Origin: Fibrobacter sp. UWB11
GTDB lineage: Bacteria; Fibrobacterota; Fibrobacteria; Fibrobacterales; Fibrobacteraceae
Assembly: GCF_900143015.1 (NCBI RefSeq)
Contig: NZ_FSRT01000001.1
Location: 1,612,001-1,676,000 of the forward strand
Direction: 5' to 3'
Length of the DNA: 64,000 nucleotides
The position numbers were made by a program, and so were the translations under genes. Position 1 is the first letter of the stretch, and the number at the start of each line of letters is the position of its first letter. The notes beneath the pieces were generated by a model that searched no databases, was not told where the DNA came from, and was given only the letters and a program-made list of their open reading frames with translations. Below are positions 1-60,275 of the stretch, piece by piece.

Positions 1-123
1 ACGGTGGAGCTTTGCTGGCTGGAAAGATACAAAAAAACGGGTTATTTGTGTAGTAATAATCTCAAAAAAAAGCGACTAAAAAGACCAAAGACCGCCATGT
101 GAGGTCGTGCCACCTCTCCCCCG
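1..123. other. Left edge, no confident gene
   Basis: No complete gene is visible. In plus frame 3 an open frame from the window edge ends in TAG at 51-53 and would encode a short tail ending KNGLFV, which may be the 3' end of a truncated plus-strand gene, but 16 codons cannot be assigned. At 102-116 a short inverted repeat (GAGGT/ACCTC) lies just past the stop of the minus-strand thioredoxin gene; it lacks an adjacent T-run on the minus strand, so it is only a weak terminator candidate. Confidence 0.2.
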
Positions 124-30459: not shown

Positions 30460-35362
<4,903 letters not shown>

Positions 35363-35373
35363 ATTCATCTCCC

Positions 35374-42968: not shown

Positions 42969-44423
42969 TTAGTCTAACTTAATCTTCTTAAGGACTGCGG
43001 AATTAGCGTTCTTGACACGCACAACATAGAGACCGCTCGGAACGCCATTCAAGGAGATGGCGACAGTGCCCCTTGCGTCCTTATCGAACGACTTCAAAAC
43101 GCTACCTGTCACAGAAATCAGGTCAACATGAACTTTTCCGTCAGTTTCAAGCTGGAGCGTTCTGCCCGAAAGCGTCATCTTCGGAGCGTTAGTCACCGCT
43201 GTAGGCAAGGCAATCGTGCCATTGCTAGAGCTAGATTCCACAGAGCTGGAGCTAGCCGGAACAGAGCTCGAAGAAACCGGGCCCGCAGGTGTTGCAGCGG
43301 CAAGATTCGGCATGTTGCCCGAAACGAGCAAACCGTTCAAAAGTTTGAGAGACTGGTTGAAGTAATTTTCATCACCAAGAGCGACGGCTTCTTTCCAGTA
43401 TTCGTCAAGCTTAGACTGGTATTTAGCATCCGAAATCAAGGCCGTCATAAGAGAAGTCACAAACGTGCTGTTGTGATCACTGCCGAGACCGCCAGACGAA
43501 CGATTAACCGATCCACTCATGCGCGAAGCAGACACTGTAGAAACAAATTCAGCCATTTTCTTGTCGAGAGCAAGAGCTCGCTGGTCACCATGCCAGCAAA
43601 CGGCCTTGGCGTTACGCCACGGAGCGCGGGAAGCATCGTAGCTGTATTGGTCATCTTCGCTCTTGCCATTTTTGTCAGTCCAGTCATCGATAAGGCCGGT
43701 CGTAACTTCTGCAGAGCTAGCTTCATACAACTTCATGTTGGCATCGTAAGCAGTCTTGTTCCAGAAATCGGCATTTTCAGTATCGACCAAAGCAAAAAGC
43801 GGCATGTAAGCCGGGTCAAAATAGCCCGGATTCTTGCGGTTGTAACCGGCATCGCCCCACTTGTCGCCCGGCAAATGCAAACCGTTCGATTCGAATTCGA
43901 ACTTTTTCATGGACTGAATGAGTTTCTTGGCATCTTCCTTGTACTTTTCATCGCCAAACTGATAGTAAGCCATCACGAGAGCGGCTGCAGCATCGATATC
44001 GCCATCGAGAGCGGCACCTTTATCGTAAGCCTGGTTGAGATTACCGACCTTCCACACCATCAGGCCGTTTTCGTTCATCATCTTTTTGTAGAAGTTCCAA
44101 ATTTTATCGAATTGCGACTGATAGCTCGTAGTGTTGTCGCTAAAGTAGACCATCAAAAGCATGCCGTAACCGACACCTTCCGAGAAGTATTCGTTGGAAC
44201 CCGGGTTAGAACGCACACCGGCCACATCGCCTTCTTCGTTGTACATGGTCTTGAGCCAATAAGCAAACTGGGACTTCAATTCTTCGGAAGCCTTAGCCTT
44301 GTCGCTCAAAAGCGTTGCGTTTCCACCATAATCGGACATCTGCGGAAACGGGAAGTTCACCTTAGCCTGAGCAAGACCAAAAGCAAAGAGGCCTGCAAGA
44401 CCCAATTTTGCCAAACAATTCAT
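42969..44423 (-). CDS. GH8 family endoglucanase with C-terminal sorting domain
   Basis: Secreted glycoside hydrolase of 484 residues; signal peptide about 1-20 (LFAFGLAQA). The GH8 fold (about 22-365) shows the proton-donor Glu82 in SEGVGYGMLLMV, the DGDIDAAAALVMAYYQFGD block with substrate-binding Asp, and APWRNAKAVCWHGDQRAL near the second half. GH8 enzymes are inverting endo-beta-1,4-glucanases (also xylanases or chitosanases). A short Ser-rich linker precedes a C-terminal sorting-like domain (VHVDLISVTGSVLKSFD ... GLYVVRVKN...KKIKLD). ATG 44423 has GGAG; a TTG at 44429 is in frame but less likely. Its promoter and terminator make it monocistronic. A role in cellulose breakdown fits the genus. 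Confidence 0.9.
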   Translation of the reverse strand: MNCLAKLGLAGLFAFGLAQAKVNFPFPQMSDYGGNATLLSDKAKASEELKSQFAYWLKTMYNEEGDVAGVRSNPGSNEYFSEGVGYGMLLMVYFSDNTTSYQSQFDKIWNFYKKMMNENGLMVWKVGNLNQAYDKGAALDGDIDAAAALVMAYYQFGDEKYKEDAKKLIQSMKKFEFESNGLHLPGDKWGDAGYNRKNPGYFDPAYMPLFALVDTENADFWNKTAYDANMKLYEASSAEVTTGLIDDWTDKNGKSEDDQYSYDASRAPWRNAKAVCWHGDQRALALDKKMAEFVSTVSASRMSGSVNRSSGGLGSDHNSTFVTSLMTALISDAKYQSKLDEYWKEAVALGDENYFNQSLKLLNGLLVSGNMPNLAAATPAGPVSSSSVPASSSSVESSSSNGTIALPTAVTNAPKMTLSGRTLQLETDGKVHVDLISVTGSVLKSFDKDARGTVAISLNGVPSGLYVVRVKNANSAVLKKIKLD

Positions 44424-44435
44424 ACACAACTCCTA

Positions 44436-44509: not shown

Positions 44510-46129
44510 TTAACGATTTGTGCGGTCCATCACGACAAAAAACGGGTCATGATACGCCACGTGCCAATTTTCGGCAGAATCAAGCGTGGCAATCAATTTA
44601 TCCCAGCGGGCATAATAGCGGAGCGGTAGCACAACGCGGTCCATGTTCTGCAATTCTGCTTCATGGAGGAATACACGCGGAGATTCTGCATACCGCAGGT
44701 AATTTTCGAAAAATTCCGCTGTTTTGAGGATAAAACGACCATCGATATACGTAGAATCGGATGGATTCACAAAAGCCAAATAGCCCCCGGCGCGGTCATC
44801 ATTGAAAAGTCTCCCCGAATGCGGATGCGATTTCATCCATTCTGCAGCAGCGACTGGAACGCGCTGGTACGCCACCATGGAATCATAAGCCAATAGCGAT
44901 TTCACCCAAAGCCCAAAGAGGAACGCAATGAGGAGCATAGGAAGTAGCGCATAGAGAGCCGACCGCTTACCTTCGGCAGAACTCAAACGAGCGAAGAATC
45001 GCGTTTTCAAGGCGACCGCAAAAAAAACAGGCAAAAAGAGCACAAAATTGCGTTCGGCAATAAGCGCAAGAACAGCCGTTACAACAAGGCAAAAAGGCTG
45101 CAAGCGGCAATCCAGTATGGCCTCGGTCCGTTCCGTCCTTTGCCAAACCAACCGCCCCGAAGAATAGGGTGATTTTCGAGAATACCACTGGACACACGCC
45201 AACGCAAGCCCCGCAAGAATAAGAACAATCATCAGCGCTGATTGCAATACATTCTCCCCCGCCATCAAAAGCGTTATGGGAGAGCGATTTTCAGCAATTT
45301 CACTTGCAAAAACGGCAGCAGAAGGAGAAAGCCCTACCAAACGATCAAACAATCCCACCGGATAAATGAACAAGTGCGGACCATCTCGATGCAAGAAGGG
45401 CATTACAAGCATAATCGCGACAAAAGCGAGTTGCCCCCAATACCTTTTATAATCCAATTTTTTCCAGCTCCAAACAACCATATTCCACACTTCAAACTCG
45501 AACGCGAACACCGTAAATGCAAAAAGCAACCCAAGAATATACAATCCCTGAAATCTGCACCAGAACCATTGAATGGCAAGAATCAACAAAGCCGATGCAA
45601 TTAACCTTGCTTTATAAATTCGAACGCTATACTGATGTTCCTCCCCAAGACCTTTATGGCGAAGGTAGTGACTTTTCCCAGCTGTAATAAAAAGCCACGG
45701 CAAAACGTTCCAGTAAATGCCGAGGAAAATCAAGCTGAAAAGTACCGGTCGGATTTCAAATTGATAACGGAAAATAAAGAGGATTACCGCAAAAATTGCA
45801 AAGCAAATAATAGATTGCTTCACCCCTACGGGGTTCGCAATGACGTTGTCTTGACGAGTTCGTACCGAAGGCCACAAGAACAGTGCAAAAACGAGGCCCC
45901 ACAGAATCGCCTTAAACGCAACGAGCAACCTCGCACCACCGAGGTTGTACACAAAAGCAACTATTTGCTGAAAATACTCGTGCACATTCACGACAGGCTC
46001 ACGAACCGGAGTCCATGTAGTCACCCATTCGCGTGCACAAGCCAAATGCCACCAGATATCGGTATCTGTCAGCGGAAACACTGCAAAAAGCGCAACCGCT
46101 ATAGACACCAATACCAAAAGCAACATCAT
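44510..46129 (-). CDS. Polytopic GT-C-like membrane protein, with in-frame repeat insertion
   Basis: Protein of 539 residues with about ten membrane helices. The start (FPLTDTDIWWHLACAREW) has an acidic first loop like GT-C glycosyltransferases, and the soluble C-terminal part (AAEWMKSHPHSGRLFNDDRAGGYLAF, STYIDGRF, PFFVVMDR) matches the tail pattern of a common group of uncharacterised bacterial GT-C-like proteins. These use lipid-phosphate sugars to glycosylate surface molecules. Residues about 89-106 (RTRQDNVIANPVGVKQS) come from a dispersed repeat at 45812-45845. It is the last gene of the long minus-strand locus, 7 bp after the TIGR02171-type gene. Enzyme activity is inference. Confidence 0.55.
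   Translation of the reverse strand: MMLLLVLVSIAVALFAVFPLTDTDIWWHLACAREWVTTWTPVREPVVNVHEYFQQIVAFVYNLGGARLLVAFKAILWGLVFALFLWPSVRTRQDNVIANPVGVKQSIICFAIFAVILFIFRYQFEIRPVLFSLIFLGIYWNVLPWLFITAGKSHYLRHKGLGEEHQYSVRIYKARLIASALLILAIQWFWCRFQGLYILGLLFAFTVFAFEFEVWNMVVWSWKKLDYKRYWGQLAFVAIMLVMPFLHRDGPHLFIYPVGLFDRLVGLSPSAAVFASEIAENRSPITLLMAGENVLQSALMIVLILAGLALACVQWYSRKSPYSSGRLVWQRTERTEAILDCRLQPFCLVVTAVLALIAERNFVLFLPVFFAVALKTRFFARLSSAEGKRSALYALLPMLLIAFLFGLWVKSLLAYDSMVAYQRVPVAAAEWMKSHPHSGRLFNDDRAGGYLAFVNPSDSTYIDGRFILKTAEFFENYLRYAESPRVFLHEAELQNMDRVVLPLRYYARWDKLIATLDSAENWHVAYHDPFFVVMDRTNR
45812..45845. repeat. Dispersed GTCATTGCGA-type repeat inside the GT-C-like gene
   Basis: On the minus strand it reads CGTCATTGCGAACC...GAAGCAATCT with an internal CCCC/GGGG palindrome, the GTCATTGCGA...GAAGCAATC repeat type common between genes in many bacteria. 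Here it is translated in frame. Confidence 0.75.
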
Positions 46130-46136
46130 CTAGCGC

Positions 46137-49076
46137 CTACTTCGAAGATTTCCCCGAATCAATCGACTTGACAAATTCATTCAAACGTTTCGAGAACTGT
46201 ATTGCACCATCTTTGTTCAAATGGTCATAGTCGTTTGCCATCGAAGAGGGGTAATCATGGTCGCCAAACTTATTCTCGTCAAAGACAAAGAAATTCGACT
46301 TGGCCTCTGCAAATTCATTGATTTCATCAAGGATTTTCTTAGCATGGCTACGGAGCATGCCATGACGTGAATAAGCACCCGTCTTCTTATATTCCGGGCT
46401 CACCGGGAAAACGACACCGATTACAACGATATTGCGTTCCTTGGCAATGCGTACAAGGTCCTTCAGCTTATCAATATCACCCGTGAAAATTCCCAAGCAT
46501 TGATCCAAGCTATGTTTGGCCAAGCACATGTTATAGTTCGTGTCTACAACATCATTCATGCAAACACTCATCGTATATTTCGAAAGGCACGTATTTTGGT
46601 CTTCATCCACAAGGCAATTGGACAAATTCTTATTGAACAAGCAGTTACTCCACGTAGAATCCGGGTCAATAACGACATGTCCGTTTTCATCGGCCCAGCC
46701 TCTATTATCCGAAGCCGCATACCAGCCGCGTTCCTTAATAACCGACTGCGCCTCATCTACGGCATTTTCCATGACGAGATCCACAAACGCATTATCGACT
46801 CCGTCCGGATAAAATTCATGTTTTTCGTCATATACAAAGCCTAGGGCATCGCCCCTGCACAAATTAATATCCATGCGTTTATCAATATTATACCACAAAT
46901 CAATATCAAGACCCACAGCAACATACTTTACCTTGGATGCATGATTCACAACATAATTTTCAAAAAGGTAATGGATACAATGCATGTCGCACGGAACGAC
47001 ACCCATATTCATCGCCGAAACGCTCATTTGTGATGGATCAAAGCCTGCCCACATGTGCGAATTGCCAAGCCCGATAAATTCTACGGAATCCTTGAGTTTC
47101 CAGAACATCGGCATTTTGTGAGAAAGCAAATAGTTTGTTTGGTTCCCTGCCGAAACGTAGACACCGACGCTATCGGCATCCCAATTCGACGATTCCGAAG
47201 AATTACCCGTAGAAACCCAGAAACACGGATGCCAAATTTCTTCACCCTCGACAAGTACCGTCACCGAGCTATCCTTGGTATTCACCAAAGCAATTTTTTT
47301 GTGAGCGCCATCAGCATTAGCAAGCGTTACGACGGCAACATTTTCGTCATTCAGCACCCATTCACTATGGTCAAACGTATAACCCGACGGAGCCGCAACT
47401 GAAGAAACAAGCTTACCATTATTATCGGCAATAAGCAAGCGTTCGTGAGTACGGTACTTTTCACCAACAAACGTGCGACCCGTTTCTCCGCCAAAATCAA
47501 GGAACAACGTACGCTTGCTCTTTTTATTCAAAGAAGCATTGCAAGCTTGTTCGCCATTATACCACAAAGTATCTTTTGCATCCGATTTTGCAATCGAGCC
47601 CTTAGCAGCCACACGAGCGCGGAGCACGCGAGCACCTGTCACCGTCAACGATTCGTCATCACTAATACCGCCATGGTAAGCGCCATCAAACAATTTTTGC
47701 GGTTCGCCAAATTTTCCATTGGCAAACTTCACCTGCCATGTCGAAGCCGATTTAAATACGGATTCATCTTTGTTGTTACCGGCATCAGTTACATAGACAA
47801 TCACCGTATCGCCATTTTCGAGAACGCGCCAGCGCGGAATCGCAGCCGATTTTACATCAAGCTTAACAAGATTGGAACCTTCGGCATTTAAGTCACGGAC
47901 ATAAACGCTAGAGGCACCGCTCAGGCCTTCCTCTCTCGTGCAGAAAGCAACGCGTTTTCCGTCCGGAGAAATGTCCGGGTGATAAACATCAATTGTATCC
48001 TTGATTTCTACAATTGTCGGCGAGACTCTTCTAAAATCAACAAACACCAAATTCTTGGTATTGTAGTTCCTAAACGCAAGTTTGGACTTTGAAGTTCCAA
48101 AAAGCGGCGTGATATTCTGGGAGCTAGCGACAAGGGAAAGATTAGAAGCAACCGCAGAACCCGATGCATCGAGCCAAACCGGATTTTCGATTTTTCCATA
48201 AGCCAAGCGGAATCCCAAATAATCCGAGGCGCTCGTTCCCGTCACGGTATAGACGTCGCCACGAGCATACAAGTTTATATCCGAAATTGCGGTTCTGTAA
48301 TTTCCGCCCTTAATAACGCGTTCGCCAAGATTACCGCCATCGGCACCGCCCACGTAATTGGTAATTGACGTATCGCGGAAATTTCCAAGCCAGTCGTTCA
48401 CCCATTCGGTCACGTTACCGAGCATATCGCACAAGCCGTTTTCATCTTTTTTCGTGCAAACTTCGTGCGCCTTAGAACCTGAATTTTCGACATTCCAGCT
48501 CTTATAAACATTGAACGACAAACCGGCAGCAAAACTCCATTCTGCTTCAGTCGGCAAACGGAACGCTTCAACATCCGGCTTAAACACAAAGCCATTCAAG
48601 AGGTTGCAATGGCCATTTTTGTCAAATTCTGCAGAGGAATACGTATAAGCAGTATCCATTCCAGCGGCTTTGCTTTTGGCATTTGCAAAAAGAACGGCAT
48701 CGTAATAGGTCACGTTGACCGCAGGCAAAGATTCCTTTTCGCAATCCAACTTGACACCGCCTTTTTTGTCCATCAGCGCATTAAATTCGCCACAAGTAAC
48801 TTCATGCTTGCCTAACTGGAAATCATAAGTGAACTTGACATCCATTTGCGGGCGTTCATTCGCCTTTGCGGACTTGGAATTTGTCCCCAATTCGGCAACT
48901 TTGCCCGAAGAACGGATTAATGCAAAATCTTCTTGCAACGTAACATCCGAACAATTTTCCTGCGAGCTGCAAACGAGCGATGAGCCCATTTCGGTCTGCG
49001 TAGGAGAATCGTCCGAACAAGAAAGTAAGAAAGAACCAACTAAAAAAGATGTACCGACAAAGACTGCTTTTTTCAT
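46137..49076 (-). CDS. TIGR02171-type Fibrobacter paralogous lipoprotein (copy 4 of 4)
   Basis: Lipoprotein of 979 residues, lipobox LLSC (Cys about 20). Part 1 (about 45-300) is an FGE/SUMF1-like fold: HEVTCGEFN, VTYYDAVLFANAKS, FRLPTEAEWSFAAG, MLGNVTEWVNDW, RVIKGGNYR, DYLGFRLAYG; the active cysteines of FGE are missing. Part 2 (about 320-640) is TolB-like propeller sequence (HPDISPDGKRVAFCT) and holds the block YNGEQACNASL, TLFLDFGGETG, THERLLIAD and YTFDHSEW. Part 3 (about 665-979) has GLGNSHMWAG, GLDIDLWY and late DYDHLNKDGA, suggestive of an SGNH-type hydrolase. A run of extra cysteines (SNCLF, SNCLV, NTCLS, QCLG) is unique to this copy. ATG 49076 preferred over TTG 49091. Confidence 0.8.
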   Translation of the reverse strand: MKKAVFVGTSFLVGSFLLSCSDDSPTQTEMGSSLVCSSQENCSDVTLQEDFALIRSSGKVAELGTNSKSAKANERPQMDVKFTYDFQLGKHEVTCGEFNALMDKKGGVKLDCEKESLPAVNVTYYDAVLFANAKSKAAGMDTAYTYSSAEFDKNGHCNLLNGFVFKPDVEAFRLPTEAEWSFAAGLSFNVYKSWNVENSGSKAHEVCTKKDENGLCDMLGNVTEWVNDWLGNFRDTSITNYVGGADGGNLGERVIKGGNYRTAISDINLYARGDVYTVTGTSASDYLGFRLAYGKIENPVWLDASGSAVASNLSLVASSQNITPLFGTSKSKLAFRNYNTKNLVFVDFRRVSPTIVEIKDTIDVYHPDISPDGKRVAFCTREEGLSGASSVYVRDLNAEGSNLVKLDVKSAAIPRWRVLENGDTVIVYVTDAGNNKDESVFKSASTWQVKFANGKFGEPQKLFDGAYHGGISDDESLTVTGARVLRARVAAKGSIAKSDAKDTLWYNGEQACNASLNKKSKRTLFLDFGGETGRTFVGEKYRTHERLLIADNNGKLVSSVAAPSGYTFDHSEWVLNDENVAVVTLANADGAHKKIALVNTKDSSVTVLVEGEEIWHPCFWVSTGNSSESSNWDADSVGVYVSAGNQTNYLLSHKMPMFWKLKDSVEFIGLGNSHMWAGFDPSQMSVSAMNMGVVPCDMHCIHYLFENYVVNHASKVKYVAVGLDIDLWYNIDKRMDINLCRGDALGFVYDEKHEFYPDGVDNAFVDLVMENAVDEAQSVIKERGWYAASDNRGWADENGHVVIDPDSTWSNCLFNKNLSNCLVDEDQNTCLSKYTMSVCMNDVVDTNYNMCLAKHSLDQCLGIFTGDIDKLKDLVRIAKERNIVVIGVVFPVSPEYKKTGAYSRHGMLRSHAKKILDEINEFAEAKSNFFVFDENKFGDHDYPSSMANDYDHLNKDGAIQFSKRLNEFVKSIDSGKSSK

Positions 49077-49112
49077 TCCTAAAAAATACAAATTTATATA
49101 GGCAAAAGCAAA

Positions 49113-51857
49113 TTATTTCATCGTCCGTAAAAGCGAATCCAAGCGTAATGTTACCTTACTTGCGCCCTGAATACTAAGATGGTCCGTATTCAAAGCACAT
49201 TCATCGCCATAGTCATGATATCCGTTTTTATTTTCATCCAACAAGCGGAAATGCGGATATTCGCTTTGGTACCTGTTCAGAGAATCCAAAACAGCCATCG
49301 CTTTAGAACGGCGCGGACCATAACGGCCCCAAGCACCGGTTTCACGATACCCAGGATTCTGCGGGAACACAACGCCGACAACCTTAACACCCAAAGGGGC
49401 CGTCTTGATTATAAAGTTTTTGATGCGTTCCAAATTCCACTTAATCTTCGCATCGCCCGTAGCGCCACCCCAGCTAGAATCGAATTCTACCGTAGCAGGG
49501 CCCCAGGCAACGCCGTTATCACTGAAAAATCCTCGAGTCGGTTCATAAATCGTTCTTGCAATTTCTGAATACTGGGACGATTCTTCCACAGCATCCAAGA
49601 ACCAATCCGGAATACCCGACACCCAAAAACCGTGGTTTGCATCATACACAAAGCCCGGCGTATTCGCCATCAAAATTTCCGTATATTCCGACGAATTGTG
49701 CCAAAGATCCAAATCAATAGAAACTACAATAAATTTCAGTTTCGACAAATGATTCAGCCCATAATTTTCGGCAACATACAGGGATGCGTTCATGTCGTTA
49801 CCCGAATGCCCCGTATTCAGTGCAAAACCCGAAGTAAGAGCCGTTACCATAAGGCTGTTTTCGGTTCTAGAGCTCCCTACACACAAGATTTCAATATCAT
49901 CTTTATACTTCCAGAGCATCGACATTTTATAGCCAAGCGATACGTGCGCCCAGTCCTGTCCATCCTTAAAGTAGACTCCGGCGCTATCAAGGTCGATGAC
50001 GATATCGTCCCCCACATTCATTCCTTTTTTCACCCATAAACTCGGGTGCCACAATTCATCACCTTCCACAAGGTCAATGACACTATCATCCAGCAAATTA
50101 ACCATAACGATTTTCGGATGGGCACCATTCACATTCGTAAGCGTTGCAACAGCAATGTTGCCTATTCCAGAAGCCCATTCGCTATGATCAAATGTAAAGC
50201 CGCTCGGAGCCCCCACAGAGTGAACCAAGTTTCCGCTCGAATCGGCAACCAACAAACGTTCATGCGTTATGTAACTTGTACCCGCAAAAGTTTGCCCCGT
50301 GACTCCGCCAAAATCAAGGAATAAAGTCCGCTTACTGCTATCCTTGGCAAGCGAAGCATTGCAAGCCTGTTCACCGCCATACCAGACTACATTCGTTCCA
50401 ATCGCAGGTGATTGCCCATTCAGTGCAATATGCGCACGCAAAAGTCGAGCGCCCGTGACAGCAAGCATATTATCTTCGCTGATTCCGCCATGGAAAGCGC
50501 CATCCATTAACTTTTCCGGCATGCCGAACTGACCATTTGCAAATTTCACTTGCCATGTCGAATTTGTCATAAACACAGCATCATCCTTATTGTTCCCGAC
50601 ATCCGTTACATAAACAATGACAGTATCACCATTGGGAAGAACGCGCCAGCGAGGAATTGCCGCACTCGGCACATTCAATTTCACCAGATTCGAACCTTTT
50701 GCATTCAAATCGCGGACATAAACTTCTGATGTTCCTGCAATACCTTCAATTTTTGTACAGAACGCCACACGTTTACCATCTGGCGAAATTTCGGGATGGT
50801 ACATTTCAAGCGTATCTTCAATTTCGATTACAGAAGGGACCGCGCTAGAAAAATCGATATAGGCCAAATTTCCAGTAACATCATTGCGGAATGCAAGTTT
50901 CGCCTTGGATGTACCAATCAAGGAACGCAAAAGCGAAGCATTTGCAAGCGCGGTAATTCTACTCGAGGCCGCATTACCATTAGAGCCCATCCAAACAGGA
51001 TTCGGAATTTCACCGAAAGCAAGACGGAAACCGACGTAATCAGCTCGAGTCGCCGAAGTCACGGTATAAACATCGCCGCGATTGTACGAATTAATGGTTT
51101 TCACAGAATTACGGAAGCAACCGCCTTTGACAACTCGAAGTCCCAAGGTGCCGCCATCAGGAGCGCCAACATAATTCGTCAAAACAGTATCACGGAAATT
51201 TCCATTCCAATCATTCACCCACTCCATTGCATTTCCAATCATATCACAAACTCTTGCCGTATTATTCGTTCGGGAACAGACTTCATGGAGTTGGTAATCC
51301 GAATTTTCAGCAACCCAGCCTTCCGCCGTATTCCAGTTTGCGCCTGCGACAAGCACCCATTCAGCTTCGGTCGGCAAACGATAAGCTTTCTTTTCGGGGT
51401 GGAAAACAAAGCCTTCCAAATTGGTGCAATGATTTTCTGCATCGAATTGCGCATTGGCATAAGTGTAGGCCGTATCGAATCCTTCGGACTTGCTACGTTC
51501 ATTTGCAAAAAGCACCGCATCATAGTAAGTCAAATCCGTCGCAGGATTTTTTCCATAAAGGCATTTCAAGGTAAGGCCAATTGCGGGCTTCATCAAAGCA
51601 TTAAATTCATCGCAACGAACTTCATAACGGCCTATCGAAAAATCGTAGTCCAATTCGACCCTCATTTGCGGGCGTTCATTCGATTTTGCGGATGCATCAT
51701 TCGTTCCCAAGCGAACAGCACCCTTACTTGAAATGCGCAACATTCCAGATAGGGAATCTACCGCAATATTTACATCTGGCCCATCTTGCCAAGATGCATG
51801 ATTGGATTCAGTACATGCGCATAAAAACGCAATTAAAAGAATAAGAAAACATCTCAT
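49113..51857 (-). CDS. TIGR02171-type Fibrobacter paralogous lipoprotein (copy 3 of 4)
   Basis: Lipoprotein of 914 residues, lipobox FLCAC (Cys 15). Same three parts as its neighbours: FGE/SUMF1-like (about 35-285, YEVRCDEFN, YRLPTEAEWVLVAGA, MIGNAMEWVNDW, VVKGGCFRN with a single Cys, DYVGFRLAFG), propeller (about 310-610, YHPEISPDGKRVAFCTK, YGGEQACNASL, THERLLVADSSG) and SGNH-like C-terminus (about 635-914, CVGSSRTENSL, VSIDLDLWHN, NTDHLSIQGA). The putative nucleophile serine lies in GSSR and the His in DHL. 36 bp separate it from copy 4 and 23 bp from copy 2. Strong ribosome site GGGGAG. Location: outer or inner membrane lipoprotein facing the periplasm or outside. Confidence 0.8.
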   Translation of the reverse strand: MRCFLILLIAFLCACTESNHASWQDGPDVNIAVDSLSGMLRISSKGAVRLGTNDASAKSNERPQMRVELDYDFSIGRYEVRCDEFNALMKPAIGLTLKCLYGKNPATDLTYYDAVLFANERSKSEGFDTAYTYANAQFDAENHCTNLEGFVFHPEKKAYRLPTEAEWVLVAGANWNTAEGWVAENSDYQLHEVCSRTNNTARVCDMIGNAMEWVNDWNGNFRDTVLTNYVGAPDGGTLGLRVVKGGCFRNSVKTINSYNRGDVYTVTSATRADYVGFRLAFGEIPNPVWMGSNGNAASSRITALANASLLRSLIGTSKAKLAFRNDVTGNLAYIDFSSAVPSVIEIEDTLEMYHPEISPDGKRVAFCTKIEGIAGTSEVYVRDLNAKGSNLVKLNVPSAAIPRWRVLPNGDTVIVYVTDVGNNKDDAVFMTNSTWQVKFANGQFGMPEKLMDGAFHGGISEDNMLAVTGARLLRAHIALNGQSPAIGTNVVWYGGEQACNASLAKDSSKRTLFLDFGGVTGQTFAGTSYITHERLLVADSSGNLVHSVGAPSGFTFDHSEWASGIGNIAVATLTNVNGAHPKIVMVNLLDDSVIDLVEGDELWHPSLWVKKGMNVGDDIVIDLDSAGVYFKDGQDWAHVSLGYKMSMLWKYKDDIEILCVGSSRTENSLMVTALTSGFALNTGHSGNDMNASLYVAENYGLNHLSKLKFIVVSIDLDLWHNSSEYTEILMANTPGFVYDANHGFWVSGIPDWFLDAVEESSQYSEIARTIYEPTRGFFSDNGVAWGPATVEFDSSWGGATGDAKIKWNLERIKNFIIKTAPLGVKVVGVVFPQNPGYRETGAWGRYGPRRSKAMAVLDSLNRYQSEYPHFRLLDENKNGYHDYGDECALNTDHLSIQGASKVTLRLDSLLRTMK

Positions 51858-51880
51858 ACTTGCTCCCCTTGCTAAAATAT

Positions 51881-54613
51881 TTACTTATCTAATTTTAATT
51901 CAGACAATAATGAATCTAGCCTTCTTGTAAATTGTTTTGCGCCCAACGTACTCAAATGATCGACGTTATACGCCATTTCGTTCGTGTAATCGTGCGCGCC
52001 AAATTTATTTTCATCAAACAAAATGACATCCATTGCCTTTACAGAATCAATAATGTCCATGGCATAGCTGCGTTTGGGGCCATAAACGCCAAACGACCCA
52101 GTTTCGGCGTAGCCCGGATGTTGCGGATATACAGTCACAACAACCTTTATTCCCAATGTACGTGCAACCTTGATGACATACTTAAAGTACAGGTAATTTT
52201 CTTCAAAGACCGGTGAATTCTTTGGAGAATCCGTAGAATCCTTCAGGAATACAGGGAATCCCCAACTATTATCCGGCAGCAAGAAGTCTTCTAGCGTATA
52301 GGGATGTTGGAGTGCCGTTTCAGGACGCGGAGTCACCTTCACGGCATCGACAAAATGTTCCGGCAAACCGTTGACCCAGAATTCATGATTTTCATCGTAC
52401 TTGAATCCAGGCACTTTATTGTAAATAACATTGATCCAAGTCGAAAAACCATCATACCACAAGAAGTCTGGAGACATTTCAAGAACGAGAACTTTTAAAT
52501 TCTTGAGATGGTTCAATACATAATGGATAAACAGGTAAGACATTCCTGTCATCTGCCCTGCAGAATAAGCCATATTCAACATGTGATGCGACTTGATGCT
52601 TTTGTCATGCAAGGCAAACATTGTACGCGAAGAACCAAGAGCAACAGCGGTAATGCTATCACGTTCTTCCCAGAAGCGCTGCATTTTCACGCGAAGTTCC
52701 AAGGCACTGTAATAAGCGCTCGACAAATAATAAACGCCGGCACTATCTGTATCAAGTTCTTCGCTGCTGTAATTGTTTTTGGAATGCCACAAGCACGGAT
52801 GCCAAAGTTCTTCGCCCTCGACAAGCGTTTTCACAGAATTGTCCGACAAGTTAATCAACACAATCTTTTCATGAGCGCCACTCGCATTTGCAAGTGTCGC
52901 GACAACATAGTTTGTACCGCCCAAGACCCATTCCGTATGATCAAACGTATAGCCTTTCGGGGCAGCAACACTCTGAATAAGGTTGCCCTTTACATCGGCA
53001 ACGAGGAGACGTTCATGAGTGCGATAAGACTGCCCCACAAATTCTGCTCCAGTCTTGCCGCCAAAATCGAGAAACACGGTTCTATCGCTACCATCGTTAG
53101 CAAGAGACACATTGCAAGCCTGTTCACCGCCATACCAAACCGTATCAATTCCATTGAACACAGTCTTTCCTCTCGGGGCAACACGCGCACGCAAAAGCCT
53201 AGCACCAGAAACCGCAATTTGCTTTGTCAAACTCACGCCACCGTGATAGGCTCCATCAAACAGCTTTTGGGGCTTTCCGAATTTTCCATTATTGAACGGG
53301 ACCTTCCAAGTGCTCATTGTTGCAAAAGTGGCATCATCCTTATTATTTGCAGCACTCGACACATAAACGATTGCCGTATCGCCATTTTCTAAAAGAGTCC
53401 AACGCGGAATGGCCGCATTTTCAACTTCCAACTTGACCAAGTCAGAACCTTTAGCATCAAGGTTTCGCACATATACACTCGACGGTCCATTCATGCCTTC
53501 GACGCCCGTGCTGTAAGCAACGCGTTTTCCATCCGGTGAAACATCCGGGTGGTAAGCTTTCTGCGTATCGTCAATTTCGACAACAGAAATAACACCACTT
53601 CCAAAATCAATAAAGGACAAGTTACTTGCAAGGTCATTACGGAACACAAGTTTCGATTCAAATGTTCCCGTAATTCGCTTCATTTCAAAAATAGCCACTT
53701 GCGATTTTACAACGGATTCCTTAACAGAGCCGTTTTCATCGAGCCAAGTCGGATTGGGAATTGCTCCCAAAGCAAGCCTAAAGCCGAGATAATCGCCCTT
53801 TGTCGAAGATATGACCGTATAGACATCGCCACGACTATGCAAGTTCGTTGTAGAAGGTTCGTTTCTATAGCTTCCGCCTTTTACAACACGTTCACCAAGG
53901 CTACCTTCATCGGCTCCACCGACAAAATTCGTTACAGGTTCCTTCTTAAAATACGTGAGCCAGTCATTGACCCATTCCAGGACATTCCCCGCCATGTCAT
54001 AAACGCCAATTTCATTTGCAGGAGATGTACCCACGTCGTGGAACTTGTATTCAGAATTGATGCTATTCCAACCCTTTTCAGGATTCCAGCCTTGACTTGC
54101 CACATAAACCCATTCGGCTTCGGTCGGCAAGCGGTATCCCTTTACATTTTCATGGAATACAAGACCCGTTAAGTTGTCACAACTCCCCGACGCGTCAAAA
54201 GATGCACTGGTGTACGTATAAACGGTATCGAGTAAATCCTGCTTACTTTTGGCATTCGCATAAAGTACAGCATCGTAGAACGTCACATTCGTTATAGGGC
54301 TGTTATCGCCATACAAGCCTTCGCACTTGGCAGCAGCATCCTTACGCAAGGCATTATATTCACCGCAAGTGACCTCATGTTCGCCAATGTAAAAGTCATA
54401 CGTAAAAAATGATTCCATCTGAGGCATATCGCTCTGACGGGCTCCACTCACATCGGTACCCAAGAAGGTGGATTGCCCATGAGCATCGACAAAGACAAAA
54501 CCTTTGATTGGCACAATATTTTTTTCAGGTTCATCGTTCACGGGAGAACCACTGTTATCGCTACATGCGCTTAACAGTGCAAAAATGAACATGAAAAAAC
54601 TAAAGTACCTCAT
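51881..54613 (-). CDS. TIGR02171-type Fibrobacter paralogous lipoprotein (copy 2 of 4)
   Basis: Lipoprotein of 910 residues, lipobox LLSAC (Cys 17). FGE/SUMF1-like part (about 40-285: EHEVTCGEYNAL, YRLPTEAEWVYVASQ, DMAGNVLEWVNDW, VVKGGSYRNEP, DYLGFRLALG), propeller (about 305-610: HPDVSPDGKRVAYST, YGGEQACNVSL, FLDFGGKTGAEFVGQ, THERLLVAD) and SGNH-like domain (about 640-910: ALGSSRTMFAL, VLEMSPDFLWYD, NVDHLSTLGA). Its ATG overlaps the stop of copy 1 by 4 bp (ATGA), so the two are translationally coupled and probably needed in similar amounts. The GSSR motif and neighbours are best preserved in this copy and copy 1. Confidence 0.8.
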   Translation of the reverse strand: MRYFSFFMFIFALLSACSDNSGSPVNDEPEKNIVPIKGFVFVDAHGQSTFLGTDVSGARQSDMPQMESFFTYDFYIGEHEVTCGEYNALRKDAAAKCEGLYGDNSPITNVTFYDAVLYANAKSKQDLLDTVYTYTSASFDASGSCDNLTGLVFHENVKGYRLPTEAEWVYVASQGWNPEKGWNSINSEYKFHDVGTSPANEIGVYDMAGNVLEWVNDWLTYFKKEPVTNFVGGADEGSLGERVVKGGSYRNEPSTTNLHSRGDVYTVISSTKGDYLGFRLALGAIPNPTWLDENGSVKESVVKSQVAIFEMKRITGTFESKLVFRNDLASNLSFIDFGSGVISVVEIDDTQKAYHPDVSPDGKRVAYSTGVEGMNGPSSVYVRNLDAKGSDLVKLEVENAAIPRWTLLENGDTAIVYVSSAANNKDDATFATMSTWKVPFNNGKFGKPQKLFDGAYHGGVSLTKQIAVSGARLLRARVAPRGKTVFNGIDTVWYGGEQACNVSLANDGSDRTVFLDFGGKTGAEFVGQSYRTHERLLVADVKGNLIQSVAAPKGYTFDHTEWVLGGTNYVVATLANASGAHEKIVLINLSDNSVKTLVEGEELWHPCLWHSKNNYSSEELDTDSAGVYYLSSAYYSALELRVKMQRFWEERDSITAVALGSSRTMFALHDKSIKSHHMLNMAYSAGQMTGMSYLFIHYVLNHLKNLKVLVLEMSPDFLWYDGFSTWINVIYNKVPGFKYDENHEFWVNGLPEHFVDAVKVTPRPETALQHPYTLEDFLLPDNSWGFPVFLKDSTDSPKNSPVFEENYLYFKYVIKVARTLGIKVVVTVYPQHPGYAETGSFGVYGPKRSYAMDIIDSVKAMDVILFDENKFGAHDYTNEMAYNVDHLSTLGAKQFTRRLDSLLSELKLDK

Positions 54614-57456
54614 TTTTTACTCTCCCAGGACAACAACAGGTTATTCAGCCGAGAAGTCAACATGACACTACCGCCATAGCACAAATGGTCTTCATCTACG
54701 GCCATTAAGTTCGTGTAATCATGTTCACCCATTTTATTTTCATCCATCACAACAAAATTCGGGTATTCTTTATTCAGCGATTCGAGTTCGCTAATCAACT
54801 TTTTCGCAGAACTGCGGCGCAAGCCATAACGTCCAAACGCACCCGTTTTCGCATAGCCCGGGCTCTGCGGGAAAATAAGGCCCACAACACGGATATTTTT
54901 CTTTGCAGCAGCCTTGATAATGGATACAAGAGCGGCCTTGCTATCGTCAATCAAATTCCTATGTTCATCGAGATAGCTGCTATCCTGTTCAATTTCAGGT
55001 TCATCACGCCACGAATGGCAAATCGCATTCGCATAGCGGCCACGATCTTTCATGTAATGGCTTTCATCCGACGAGCCCACAGCACTTTCGGTATATTCCA
55101 ACAAGCCTTCCGGATAGCCATCGCTCCAGTAATCATGATTTGCATCATAGATGTAGCCAGGATAATTCAAGAAATCCGTATAGAAAAAGTTATCGCCATC
55201 AGGGCCATCTACTTTATGCCAAAAATCAATATCAAGCGAAACAACAATATACTTGAGATTCTTCATGTGCTTCAAAATATAGCGGTCCAAGAAATCTCGG
55301 GACATGTAAATGGAATTGGGCGTTTGTCCAAAATTCACGGCAAAGAATCGCTTGTCAAACAGCGAAGGCGTTACGCCAAACATCGGTCGCGACGAGCCCA
55401 AGATAACCACGTTCGCAGAATCGCGATACTTCCAAAGAAGGTTCATCTTGTAGCGCATGATAACAGATTCCCACTTGTCCGAAGGGCGCAAATAAACGCC
55501 TGCACTATCAGGATCAAGTTTACTCTTTTCGGGAACATAAACCTTTTGGCTCCAGACACTCGGGTGCCAAAGTTCATCGCCCTCCACCAAATCAGTCACG
55601 GTTCCATCGCCCACATTTATAAGGACCACTTTTGCATGGGCACCATTGGCATTCGTAAGCGTTGCGACGATAAAGCCGCCATTAGGCTCCGGACTTGTAT
55701 AATTCAAAACCCATTCCGCATGGTCAAAGCTATAGCCAACCGGAGCCGCAATCGTCTTAATCAGTTTACCTGTGCTATCGGCAATCAGCAAACGTTCATG
55801 CGTTCCGTAGCTTTCCCCCACAAAATCGGCACCGGTCTTACCGCCAAAATCGAGGAACGAGACGCGTTTGGTACCATCATTGGCAAGCGACACATTGCAA
55901 GCCTGTTCCCCGTTATACCACACCGTATCGCGACCATTCGCAAGCGATCCATTTGCACCAGCAATACGCGCACGCAGCAACCGCGCGCCCGTCACGGCAA
56001 GTTTATTATCGCCAGAAATCCCGCCATGGTACGCACCATCAAAAAGTTTTTGCGGAGTTCCGAAACGACCATTGGCATACTTCACCTGCCAAGTACTCTT
56101 CGACTTGAACGAGGATTCATCCTTATTGTTTCCGGCATCGGACACATAGACAATCACCGTATCGCCATTTTCAAGCACTCGCCAACGCGGGATAGAAACA
56201 TTCCCTTTCACATTGACTTTCAAAGGCTTTGCATAAACAGTCGAAAGCGCACGGATATAAGCCTCGGATTTTCCCGAGACACCTTCCATTCCCGTGCAGA
56301 ACACGACAAGCCTTCCATCCGGAGAAATATCGGGATGGTAAGAATCAATCGTATCAGAAATTTCAGTAACCGAAAGCGTTCCGTTGACATAATCGACAAA
56401 CGCCAAGTTGCCAGACACATCGTTACGGAACACGAGCTTTGTACGGTACGTTCCCAGATTATCCTTGATAAGCGTAGCACTTGCCATCGGGATGATTCGG
56501 CTATCACGCGCCTTGCCGTCGCGCCCCATCCACACCGCATTCGCAATTTTTCCAAACGCAATACGGAACCCCAAATACTCCGACTTTGCAGCCGACGTCA
56601 CGATATAGACATCACCGCGATTGTAGAGTTTTATTGCCGACGGTTCATTGCGGTAGCTCCCGCCCTTAATAACACGTTCGCCAAGAACGCCGCCATCAGG
56701 GCCACCCACGTAATTCGTAATCGTCGTATCCTTGAAATAGCCAAGCCAATCAGAAACCCATTCCTTTACGTTTCCGCCCATATCGCAGAAATCTCCACGA
56801 AGGCGTGGGTACGAGCATACTTTTTGCGGTTCAAACCCAGAATTCTGGGCATTCCATTCACCGGAGGGGTTCCAGTCACGATCGGCAGCCATCAACCATT
56901 CCGCTTCGGTCGGCAAACGGTAAGCATCCACTTCGGGGTGAAAAACAAGCCCTTCCATTGAGATGCAATTCCCGTTGGCATCAAAAGCAGTCGAGGAGTA
57001 AGTGTAAGCGGTATCGTAGCCTTCGCGCTTGCTACGTTCGTTCGAAAACAGCACAGCATCGTAATAGGTCACTTTTGTCACAGGCAACAAATCTGAATTT
57101 TCGCCATTGCAACGTTCATCAAAAGTAGTCCCCATAATAGACTTGAACTCGGCACAAGTAACCTCGTGCATGCCCATGGAAAAATCATAATTCAAAGCAG
57201 CACGCAACTGCGGGCGTTCACTCGCCTTTGCTGCCGAAGCATACGTGCCCAAATACGAAAGCGTTCCGCCGCTCGAATTTCTGACCTTCGAGGCTTTGAT
57301 AACAATCAATCCGTCATGGACATTATCATTTTCTACAGGAGCATTGAGCCAAACGTGATCACCATAAAAAGTGTCACAACCAGCAAGAACGAGCAAAAAC
57401 GGTACTAAAAAAAGTACCTTTTCAAGGAAAAAAGGATGTGCAAAATACTTAGACAT
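54610..57456 (-). CDS. TIGR02171-type Fibrobacter paralogous lipoprotein (copy 1 of 4)
   Basis: Lipoprotein of 948 residues with a longer N-terminus, lipobox VLAGC (Cys about 28). FGE/SUMF1-like part (about 70-320: MHEVTCAEFKSIMG, VTYYDAVLFSNERSK, YRLPTEAEWLMAAD, MGGNVKEWVSDW, RVIKGGSYRNEP, EYLGFRIAFG), propeller (about 345-660: YHPDISPDGRLVVFCTG, YNGEQACNVSL, FLDFGGKTGADFVGE, THERLLIADSTG) and SGNH-like domain (about 690-948: ILGSSRPMFGVTP, VSLDIDFWHK, DEDHLCYGGS). A good AAGGAGA ribosome site precedes ATG 57456; a near-copy of this leader lies 54 bp further upstream. First of four tandem paralogs, so likely the founder of the array or its promoter-proximal member. Confidence 0.8.
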   Translation of the reverse strand: MSKYFAHPFFLEKVLFLVPFLLVLAGCDTFYGDHVWLNAPVENDNVHDGLIVIKASKVRNSSGGTLSYLGTYASAAKASERPQLRAALNYDFSMGMHEVTCAEFKSIMGTTFDERCNGENSDLLPVTKVTYYDAVLFSNERSKREGYDTAYTYSSTAFDANGNCISMEGLVFHPEVDAYRLPTEAEWLMAADRDWNPSGEWNAQNSGFEPQKVCSYPRLRGDFCDMGGNVKEWVSDWLGYFKDTTITNYVGGPDGGVLGERVIKGGSYRNEPSAIKLYNRGDVYIVTSAAKSEYLGFRIAFGKIANAVWMGRDGKARDSRIIPMASATLIKDNLGTYRTKLVFRNDVSGNLAFVDYVNGTLSVTEISDTIDSYHPDISPDGRLVVFCTGMEGVSGKSEAYIRALSTVYAKPLKVNVKGNVSIPRWRVLENGDTVIVYVSDAGNNKDESSFKSKSTWQVKYANGRFGTPQKLFDGAYHGGISGDNKLAVTGARLLRARIAGANGSLANGRDTVWYNGEQACNVSLANDGTKRVSFLDFGGKTGADFVGESYGTHERLLIADSTGKLIKTIAAPVGYSFDHAEWVLNYTSPEPNGGFIVATLTNANGAHAKVVLINVGDGTVTDLVEGDELWHPSVWSQKVYVPEKSKLDPDSAGVYLRPSDKWESVIMRYKMNLLWKYRDSANVVILGSSRPMFGVTPSLFDKRFFAVNFGQTPNSIYMSRDFLDRYILKHMKNLKYIVVSLDIDFWHKVDGPDGDNFFYTDFLNYPGYIYDANHDYWSDGYPEGLLEYTESAVGSSDESHYMKDRGRYANAICHSWRDEPEIEQDSSYLDEHRNLIDDSKAALVSIIKAAAKKNIRVVGLIFPQSPGYAKTGAFGRYGLRRSSAKKLISELESLNKEYPNFVVMDENKMGEHDYTNLMAVDEDHLCYGGSVMLTSRLNNLLLSWESKK

Positions 57457-57552: not shown

Positions 57553-58275
57553 TCAAAATGGATTTGGCAATCTATTTTTCGCTATAGTTTGATTTGCATC
57601 AATTCCCGGATATTCGGGGAAAAATTCTTCTGCCATGCGGTACCACGTGAGCGCGCGCGGAATGTCTGTTTCGAGGTAGAGATTGCCGATATCAAAAGCC
57701 GCAAGACCTACGAACTGTCGCGCTTCGAGCGGTTTAAATTCAAGACCGGTCCATCGCCCATCCTTGTATTTTTCGCGATATTCCGCATCTGTGTACGAAT
57801 ACCCTCGGAGATTCGGCTCCAAATTCACCAAACTATCCGCAAAATGATAGCGTAAAAAAACATGCCCCGGGAGGAGAATGGCGTCGAGATGCAAGCCGCG
57901 CGATTCCGCCACCATGAGCGCAAGCCACGAAAGCCCCATGCAACCGGATTTTTGATTTTCGAGAACGCGAAGCGGGAGCACAGACTCTTTTGCAATAGCA
58001 GCCTCGCCTGCCCCTGCAAATTCGATATTCCAGAATTCCCATAGCAATTTTTTGAGGGAACCCAACGTATCGCGGGAAGCGGCAACACTGCTATCAAAAA
58101 ATGCAAGGCCCTTACTCCAATCACTGACGGAATCCAAGCAAGAAGGCGCACGCTCTTCGAAAACGCACGCCATTTCGCGATAGCTCATTTTATCGAAACG
58201 TCCGCTCCAAAGCAGAAGCGAAAGCGCAATCACGAACGCCGCAAGGAACAAAGGCCAGAAGAAACGCGCGAGCAT
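57553..58275 (-). CDS. Transglutaminase-like (SirB1/Transglut_core2 type) membrane-anchored protein
   Basis: Protein of 240 residues with one N-terminal membrane helix (about 3-24). The core has Cys in KSGCMGLSWLALMVAESRG, His in LLPGHVFLRY and an Asn/Glu segment LVNLEPN, in the order and spacing of the SirB1/Transglut_core2 family (GxCxGlxxL and PGHxxxR). A TPR-like helix pair (AAFDIGNLYLETDIPRALTWY) ends the chain. Whether it cleaves, crosslinks or only binds peptides is not known. It lies 16 bp after the AlgX-like gene and upstream of the TIGR02171-type array on the same strand, so a shared envelope role is likely. Confidence 0.7.
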   Translation of the reverse strand: MLARFFWPLFLAAFVIALSLLLWSGRFDKMSYREMACVFEERAPSCLDSVSDWSKGLAFFDSSVAASRDTLGSLKKLLWEFWNIEFAGAGEAAIAKESVLPLRVLENQKSGCMGLSWLALMVAESRGLHLDAILLPGHVFLRYHFADSLVNLEPNLRGYSYTDAEYREKYKDGRWTGLEFKPLEARQFVGLAAFDIGNLYLETDIPRALTWYRMAEEFFPEYPGIDANQTIAKNRLPNPF

Positions 58276-58291
58276 AAATGCGCCGAAGACG

Positions 58292-60247
58292 CTACAGTCC
58301 GTCCCATTCCATCGGGCTTTGCCAGAAGTCGCGAGCAGTCATCATGTAAATCACAAGACGCTTGCTTAGCATGTCCTTCTTCATTTTCTTTAAGCGGGCA
58401 CGGACACCAGGGCCGCCGCCCCAGCTCGTAAGCACTTGCACATCGAGCCCTGTTGCATACGCAAGCAAGGAACCCGGGCCACCGCTCTTCTGGTCCACAG
58501 ATTCAAACACGCCCGTGAACGAATCGCCCATCAAAAGAATCGGTGCATTTTTGCCGCCCTTGTACGGCTTGTCGCCCTTGTAGATTTTCATTCCAGCAAG
58601 AGTGTCAGCCGGATATTTAGACTTTTCCTTATCGGCCAAGTGAGCGACCAAATCGCCTTCGCGGAGCACGACCGTATCCTTCATCACAAGGCTACCCGGT
58701 TGCGGGTTCGCATCAGCATACCAGCTGTACTGCGTCACGCGAGTTGCAAGCAGTTCCATCGCGGCAAGCATACCCGGCAACGCCCAATGCGTATCGTAAC
58801 GCTGGTAGCTGTAATGAGGCGGTTCATCGCCCATGCGTGCAACCATCAATAACGGGTAAAGGTCCAACACATCAATGCCAGCAGCAAGCATTTCGCGGAT
58901 AAATTCACGACCGTTCACATTCACGCACAAATCTGCAGGAGTCCCCTGCACAAGTTTGTCCGCATAAATTTCTTCTTTTACAGGAATCGGCACGACCAAG
59001 AGCTGAACGTTCATCGAATCCAGATACTGCTTGAGTTCAACCATTCGCGGGAGCGGGTTGTGAAGGCTATCCTGACCGCTAATTTTATCCGCAACGAGGT
59101 AGTTTGCATTACGGCGGAACCAAAGCATGCCGTTGTCAGACCAGGCATTCTGTTCCTTCGGGAGTTTTGCAAGTTTTTTCTTTAACGCTTCGCGGAACTT
59201 CTTGGTTGCAGGCGTTGCAGGGCAACTATTTTCAAGCGATGCAAGCGTTTCCAAACGGGCATAGGAACTCGTATCAAGCGTAAGGTTTACAGGTACAACT
59301 TCACCTGCAGCAGCCAAAGAATCTGCAACAACGGCAGCACGCAACTGTTCATCCGTCAAGCGGAATGCAGGCACTTCAAAAGCAACCCACATCGGGCTAC
59401 CCATCGGGTTACCGCGCATCACGGCAAATGGACGATTTGCACGGGAATTTTCCCAAATAGCGCCTGGAGTATGTTGTTCCAAATCGGTATTCAAAGTCGG
59501 GTACCAATACGATGAAAGCGTGCGAGCCCAGTTCATCGCTTCTTCGCTATTCATTTCGGCAGTCATGTAATAATTCAAGACCTCAGCCGATTCGCCACCC
59601 GAAACAAACTTGAGTTTTCCGTAGAACGGAGCGCGGCCAGTCCAAACAGCAGGCATCACTTCGACCCACCATTCGATTTTGCCCTGATTATCACCCGTTC
59701 CGGGCACACCCCACAAACGGCTCACCGTCTGGAAAGCACGGAACACATCGGGCTCATCCCATTTAACCGCTTCGACTTCGTTCAAGGACTTTGCAAGCGA
59801 GTCATCCCCCGTTTGCGCATAGAGAATCTTTGCAAACGGTTCCCATGCAATCGGAGCTACACCCGCGACAGCCTCAGGCTCGTATTCCGAAATTGAATCG
59901 AGCATAGGGAACGGATAATCAGCAAGTTTTGCATTCGCGTTCTTGCCCGTGTAATTTTCAGGTTTTTCATCCATACCCGCCATGCGGATAGGGTTCGAAA
60001 AATACGCCGCGAAATCAAGAGCCGCAAGTGTCGGCTTTTCGACGACGCGTACCTGTTTATCCCTGTCGAGCACACGCATTTCGAATACGGTTACTGGAGC
60101 CGCATAAGTCGGAATGTGTACTGCCGGGGCTACAGATTCAGCAGCCTGCACAGAAGGATTGACAGACGGTGCAGCACAAGAGGCCGCAAGGAGCATGCCG
60201 GCCGAAAGCCCAGCAAAGCAAAGAACGGATGTAGATATTTTTTTCAT
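58292..60247 (-). CDS. AlgX/AlgJ-like SGNH-domain lipoprotein (putative polysaccharide O-acetylation)
   Basis: Protein of 651 residues; signal peptide with lipobox-like LAASC (Cys about 24). The N-terminal half is not recognised. The C-terminal half (about 350-651) resembles the ALGX/ALGJ SGNH-hydrolase-like domain: WFRRNANYLVADK, LVVPIPVKEEIYADKL, the DxHW motif at Asp485-His487 (YDTHWALPG) and, after it, Ser576 in LLMGDSFTG. Asp-His before Ser is the permuted order known in AlgJ/AlgX, which acetylate alginate in the periplasm. No MBOAT-type AlgI is in the window, so the acyl donor is unknown. Start ATG 60247 or GTG 60253; no strong ribosome site. First gene of the 44.5-60.2 kb run. Confidence 0.7.
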   Translation of the reverse strand: MKKISTSVLCFAGLSAGMLLAASCAAPSVNPSVQAAESVAPAVHIPTYAAPVTVFEMRVLDRDKQVRVVEKPTLAALDFAAYFSNPIRMAGMDEKPENYTGKNANAKLADYPFPMLDSISEYEPEAVAGVAPIAWEPFAKILYAQTGDDSLAKSLNEVEAVKWDEPDVFRAFQTVSRLWGVPGTGDNQGKIEWWVEVMPAVWTGRAPFYGKLKFVSGGESAEVLNYYMTAEMNSEEAMNWARTLSSYWYPTLNTDLEQHTPGAIWENSRANRPFAVMRGNPMGSPMWVAFEVPAFRLTDEQLRAAVVADSLAAAGEVVPVNLTLDTSSYARLETLASLENSCPATPATKKFREALKKKLAKLPKEQNAWSDNGMLWFRRNANYLVADKISGQDSLHNPLPRMVELKQYLDSMNVQLLVVPIPVKEEIYADKLVQGTPADLCVNVNGREFIREMLAAGIDVLDLYPLLMVARMGDEPPHYSYQRYDTHWALPGMLAAMELLATRVTQYSWYADANPQPGSLVMKDTVVLREGDLVAHLADKEKSKYPADTLAGMKIYKGDKPYKGGKNAPILLMGDSFTGVFESVDQKSGGPGSLLAYATGLDVQVLTSWGGGPGVRARLKKMKKDMLSKRLVIYMMTARDFWQSPMEWDGL

Positions 60248-60275
60248 TTTCACGTAAGGAATTATAATAAATGTT

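Follow-up and report, generated by a model that had tools for sequence, protein, structure and literature searches.

An SGNH-type fold predicted for the C-terminal domain of the TIGR02171 lipoproteins of Fibrobacter

The last ~300 residues of the TIGR02171 proteins of Fibrobacter are predicted with high confidence to adopt an SGNH-type fold. The proteins as a whole are very probably envelope-anchored lipoproteins of three modules, in which the C-terminal SGNH-fold domain would carry out Ser-His(-Asp) acyl-enzyme chemistry on O-acylated glycans. An earlier note, made from the DNA sequence, had suggested an ester hydrolase or acyltransferase, and at the level of the fold the modelling described below puts that suggestion on a sound footing. 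With a named Ser and His in an SGNH fold, TIGR02171, a family of unknown function, becomes a testable set of putative envelope esterases or acyltransferases, carried by Fibrobacter, key cellulose degraders of the rumen. The open-access literature searched contained no paper naming TIGR02171, and the literature search returned no biochemical data on it. Likewise, the passages searched of the Fibrobacter envelope-proteome and S85 genome papers held no statement on the family.

The TIGR02171 array

The window, i.e. the whole 64,000-nucleotide stretch of Fibrobacter sp. UWB11 DNA that was analysed, contains four minus-strand open reading frames in tandem at 46137-57456. Gaps of ~20 bp separate the genes at two junctions, and the 54610 and 51881 genes overlap by 4 bp. 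All four belong to the NCBIfam family TIGR02171 (Fb_sc_TIGR02171), with scores of 1155.6-1423.3 bits against a curated cut-off of 544.35 bits, and a lipobox was found in every one of the four proteins.

46137..49091, minus strand: paralog 1, TIGR02171 lipoprotein, 984 aa as listed (1155.6 bits; lipobox LLSC; GNSH variant)
49113..51857, minus strand: paralog 2, TIGR02171 lipoprotein, 914 aa (1357.8 bits; lipobox LCAC)
51881..54613, minus strand: paralog 3, TIGR02171 lipoprotein, 910 aa (1423.3 bits; lipobox LSAC)
54610..57456, minus strand: paralog 4, TIGR02171 lipoprotein, 948 aa (1178.5 bits; lipobox LAGC)

The listed start of paralog 1, a TTG at 49091, probably makes the protein five codons too long; an ATG at 49076 (MKKAVF...) opens a signal peptide. 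The UWB11 genome has eight TIGR02171 copies, four in the array and four elsewhere. A copy over the cut-off was present in 36 of the 61 genomes searched. Most relatives have several copies, and homologs occur across the phylum. Another Fibrobacter-specific paralogous family is represented in the window by a protein with a Fib_succ_major domain (33251-35368, minus strand).

Domain organization

Residues 30-910 of paralog 3 were modelled with a pLDDT of 89 and a pTM of 0.79. The order of the modules in this model is an FGE/C-type-lectin fold, a TolB-like propeller and the SGNH domain, the first two of which are located as follows.

53771..54481, minus strand: FGE-sulfatase/C-type-lectin-fold domain without the FGE cysteines, residues 45-281 of paralog 3 (Pfam, model, fold search)
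52778..53716, minus strand: TolB-like beta-propeller, residues ~300-612 of paralog 3 (model; fold search, TolB, Z ~22)

The Pfam FGE-sulfatase match lies at residues ~45-300 in all four window proteins. When the four whole proteins were searched, Pfam returned this family and a weak PD40 match only; no Pfam family covers the C-terminal third of TIGR02171. In the paralog 3 model, the best match of the N-terminal domain, at Z 27.6, was variable protein 1 of Treponema denticola. None of the four window proteins has a Cys at the two FGE catalytic positions, which follow the GGS motif, and 119 of the 127 motifs in the family contain no Cys at all. A catalytic FGE reading of this domain was therefore rejected and formylglycine formation is not expected; the domain is likely to serve in binding or docking. 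The TolB-like propeller would act as a scaffold.

Mean identity among the eight UWB11 paralogs was 49% in the FGE-like domain, 56.1% in the propeller and 33.7% in the SGNH domain. The SGNH domain is thus the most diverged module, as would be expected if the substrates of the paralogs differ.

Fold of the C-terminal domain

The earlier note had placed SGNH-hydrolase signatures in this region and had proposed predicting the structure of the last ~280 residues and searching for similar folds. Both were done, and the outcome was an SGNH fold. AlphaFold2, given the last 302 residues of paralog 4 and 82 aligned rows of window and fetched sequences, returned a model with a mean pLDDT of 96.2 and a pTM of 0.94. 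The model is an alpha/beta/alpha structure with a parallel sheet, in which GSS ends strand 1 and DEDHL precedes the C-terminal helix. The domains and predicted catalytic motifs of the four paralogs are given below.

54613..55518, minus strand: C-terminal SGNH-fold domain of paralog 4, residues 647-948 (AlphaFold2 model and fold search)
55387..55398, minus strand: block I GSSR of paralog 4, predicted nucleophile Ser689 (conservation, model, fold alignment)
54685..54696, minus strand: block V D921-E-D-H924 of paralog 4, predicted acid/base pair (conservation, model, fold alignment)
51884..52753, minus strand: C-terminal SGNH-fold domain of paralog 3, residues 621-910, with Ser662 and N883-V-D-H886 (conservation, model)
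49116..49985, minus strand: putative C-terminal SGNH-type domain of paralog 2, with GSSR 661-664 and N-T-D-H893 (motifs, conservation)
46140..47186, minus strand: putative C-terminal SGNH-type domain of paralog 1, with a Cys-rich insertion, GNSH 676-679 and D-Y-D-H957 (motifs)

The best 30 PDB matches in a Foldseek search with this model were of SGNH type, the exceptions being CgnD, a protein of crocagin biosynthesis, and engineered FI6 scaffolds. Below the best 30 were a few low-probability entries of other folds, and the TM-scores on the query were only 0.4-0.5. VIA-align gave Z scores of 14.5 for platelet-activating factor (PAF) acetylhydrolase, 13-13.7 for sialate O-acetylesterases, 12.5 for Escherichia coli TAP and 12-12.4 for PatB. 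DltD, with a Z score of ~13 and 238-251 residues aligned (13.0 for the match of 238 residues), had one of the largest coverages of all structural matches. Carbohydrate acetylesterases were also found among the matches (7ddy, 7toh and 6xpg). Searching PDB sequences, with either the domain alone or the 82-row profile as query, found nothing relevant.

Equivalences to known catalytic triads were read from the end offsets of these alignments, with the ends assumed to be ungapped; in model numbering, the residues concerned are Ser43, Asp275 and His278. On TAP (1ivn, model 34..300 on 1..179) these residues correspond to positions 10, 154 and 157, the known catalytic triad of that enzyme. On PAF acetylhydrolase (1wab), Asp275 and His278 correspond to 192 and 195. 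On CjPatB from Campylobacter (8tlb), Ser43 corresponds to 138, the catalytic Ser of that enzyme (PMC12148441), and His278 to 309, one residue off His310. Judged by these offsets, the Ser and His would both fall on the known triads of TAP and CjPatB.

Conservation of the predicted catalytic residues

The motifs on which the earlier note had relied were borne out. Gly-x-Ser-[RH] occurs in all four paralogs, as GSSR in three and GNSH in paralog 1, and Asp-His-Leu with a following Gly takes the form DHL-x3-G near the C-terminus of all four. The LDIDLW-type strand said to lie between these motifs was found in three of the proteins (LDIDLW, IDLDLW and LDIDFW); paralog 3 has MSPDFLW instead. The model agrees with the assignment of GxS and DHL to SGNH blocks I and V: GxS closes strand 1, and DHL lies in the loop that leads into the last helix.

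Conservation was assessed in a 148-row set of Fibrobacter-type copies, to which the window contributed its four genes and 77 loci in a public genome collection the other 144 domains. The Gly and the Ser of GxS were each present in 148 of 148 rows, as was an Asn 18 residues after GxS (148/148), and the His of DHL was present in all 147 rows reaching it. Given this conservation across 148 copies, the GxS and DHL motifs are not due to chance. The residue at -3 of the block V His is Asp in 74 of the 148 copies and Asn in 68, and an Asp stands at either -3 or -1 in 143 of 147. A distant set comprised 31 stretches that represent other genera, families and classes within the phylum. In this set, the Ser was kept in 29 of the 29 stretches covering it and the His in 30 of 31, and block V was mostly the canonical DxxH, with Asp at -3. 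Comparison of the two sets suggests DxxH as the ancestral form, from which many Fibrobacter copies shifted the acid to -1.

In one of the UWB11 paralogs outside the array (C2:140244-142967), GSSR is replaced by GSSM, D by LSPG and D-x-D-H by N-P-N-H. The N-P-N-H form, without any Asp, was found in this paralog and its relative, and the protein may be inactive or a dyad enzyme. Paralog 1 carries an insertion of ~47 residues in its SGNH domain (residues ~800-850), which contains six Cys, most of them part of CL pairs. These Cys are mostly kept by orthologs at loci L047, L048, L049, L050 and L074, and fewer of them at L053.

Oxyanion hole and superfamily membership

The SGNH blocks I, II, III and V are defined by Ser, Gly, Asn and His respectively (PMC9487903). 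The block II Gly, expected at Asn+5 by analogy with the sequence pattern of TAP, is present in 28 of the 148 Fibrobacter-type copies and 13 of the 31 distant homologs and is thus not conserved. The block III Asn is absent; the region holds an Asp in 143 of 148 Fibrobacter copies and mainly Gly elsewhere in the phylum. Since neither residue is conserved, the oxyanion hole of the TIGR02171 domain is non-canonical. Candidates for a role in it are Asn708, which is invariant, and Asp744, which is conserved (paralog 4 numbering). The Arg after the Ser was also considered as a universal oxyanion residue and was rejected, as it is not kept outside Fibrobacter.

Departures of this kind are known within the superfamily. 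AlgX/AlgJ, PatB1, XOAT1 and SASA esterases are SGNH members with departing oxyanion holes, and in AlgX/AlgJ, PatB1 and XOAT1 the block III Asn is lost or unused, yet these proteins are counted in the superfamily (PMC9487903). Because these members depart too, membership of the TIGR02171 domain in the SGNH group stands at the level of the fold. Among the proteins with scores listed, none matched a Pfam family of the SGNH superfamily over its curated cut-off. Sub-threshold matches over many members were to DltD (best 1.1e-5), DUF1574 (3.6e-6), SGNH, Lipase_GDSL_2 and ALGX, all five of which are SGNH-superfamily families (PMC9487903). The DltD model (PF04914) matched 6 of 82 relatives, its best hit being below the gathering cut-off, and no window protein up to an E value of 10.

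Genomic context and proposed function

Beyond the computed fold and conservation, we infer catalysis, substrate and location. TIGR02171 proteins probably act on the acyl groups of sugars, or of other polymers of the envelope or of plants, by removing or transferring them. The nucleophile would be the Ser of GxS (Ser689 in paralog 4), which the His of DHL (His924), together with the Asp at -3 or -1, would activate for attack on the acyl ester; the acyl-enzyme would be resolved either by water, as in an esterase, or by a sugar hydroxyl, as in an acyltransferase. The substrates would likely be O-acylated glycans found at the cell surface, whether those of the cell itself or plant hemicellulose. 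The following genes flank the array.

58292..60253, minus strand: AlgX-like SGNH lipoprotein (Pfam ALGX, 1.5e-16, above cut-off), conserved neighbour
57553..58275, minus strand: transglutaminase-like protein (Transglut_core2), conserved neighbour
44510..46129, minus strand: membrane protein with ~9 predicted TM segments and no Pfam family, conserved neighbour
42969..44429, minus strand: GH8 glycosidase, neighbour, with a Por_Secre_tail match just below cut-off

In the 77 fetched loci, the ALGX and transglutaminase-like genes occurred together in 25, the multi-TM protein in 31 and the GH8 gene in 13; these counts are lower bounds, many loci being cut, and are not independent, as several loci come from one genome. 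The AlgX-type lipoprotein regularly accompanies the array, with up to 99% identity over the flank in other Fibrobacter loci. The 9-TM protein recurs beside TIGR02171 genes, and no Pfam family was found in it or in the three homologs tested. Its N-terminal stretch DTDIWWHL resembles GT-C glycosyltransferases.

A narrower version of the proposed function, a serious though tentative candidate, is that the proteins are acyltransferases acting on the cell's own envelope or surface glycan, passing an acyl group from a membrane donor to a polysaccharide in the manner of AlgX, PatB and DltD. The recurrence of the array with AlgX-like, transglutaminase-like and multi-TM proteins argues for it, as do the wide coverage of DltD among the structural matches and the block III Asn that is also lost or unused in the acyltransferases AlgX/AlgJ, PatB1 and XOAT1. 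However, no MBOAT gene adjoins the array or the AlgX-type lipoprotein gene, and the test for partnership by adjacency found none; the two MBOATs found in the genome are ~60 and ~100 kb away. Furthermore, four of the eight UWB11 paralogs are solitary, without the array-type neighbours. One of the two MBOATs has two GDSL partners. Away from the array, at L204:3546-8918, an MBOAT and two GDSL-type genes stand in a row, likely a complete O-acylation system of the usual kind. It is conceivable, but on balance unlikely, that a new SGNH family (with its non-canonical oxyanion hole, lectin-like and propeller modules and surface lipoprotein form), the AlgX-like protein and the multi-TM protein together make up a Fibrobacter-specific envelope O-acylation machine without an adjacent MBOAT.

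It is possible, if rather doubtful, that the proteins are instead surface esterases that open plant hemicellulose to the cell's glycosidases by stripping it of acetyl or similar groups. Fibrobacter is a fibre-degrading genus, GH8 lies near the array in the 13 loci mentioned, carbohydrate acetylesterases are among the structural matches, and a large number of diverged copies would fit a wide variety of acyl decorations. Against this, the TIGR02171 proteins have neither a CBM nor a T9SS tail in Pfam, and their homologs extend across the phylum. Moreover, the carbohydrate esterases given in the genome paper on strain S85 are of families CE1, 2, 6, 8, 12 and 15, several with CBM and BTD (PMC3079729).

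That the SGNH-fold domain is a pseudoenzyme, kept for binding or structure, is improbable. The lack of the canonical oxyanion residues, and of an Asp in the paralog with GSSM and N-P-N-H, might suit such a role. But the Ser and His are invariant over 148 copies and preserved across most of the phylum, even though identity elsewhere in the domain drops to 25-40%, and this would be unexpected for a dead site. A different Rossmann-like fold with chance motifs would account for the lack of Pfam and PDB sequence matches over threshold, but is barely credible in view of the high-confidence model, the almost exclusively SGNH fold matches and the end offsets that fit known triads.

Comparison with known systems

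The preferred reading, an envelope-anchored lipoprotein with a catalytic SGNH-fold domain, can be set beside several known systems. In its N-terminal domain, TIGR02171 shares a fold with T. denticola variable protein 1, FGE and PorK/GldK (Z 27.6, ~22 and ~22 respectively); unlike FGE, it lacks the catalytic cysteines. The closest solved structures to the SGNH domain are PAF acetylhydrolase Ib alpha and sialate O-acetylesterase, both of GDSL type, with Z scores of 13-14.5 and matching block V offsets, although identity is 10-17%. DUF1574 (PF07611), an SGNH family of unknown function, gave sub-threshold matches that were co-linear over blocks I-III and V, the best at 3.6e-6. DltD, a D-alanyl transferase, has an SGNH fold like that of the TIGR02171 domain, was the best Pfam match among Fibrobacter members and has its GSS block I at the same place. 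In contrast to DltD, the TIGR02171 domain forms one polypeptide, a lipoprotein, with FGE-like and propeller domains, and no DltB-type MBOAT stands beside its gene. AlgX/AlgJ, PatB1 (DHHW) and XOAT1 (PC-Esterase) share with it a block III Asn that is replaced or unused (PMC9487903). AlgX and PatB1, however, are circularly permuted (H-S-G-N), whereas in the TIGR02171 domain the Ser comes first and the His last.
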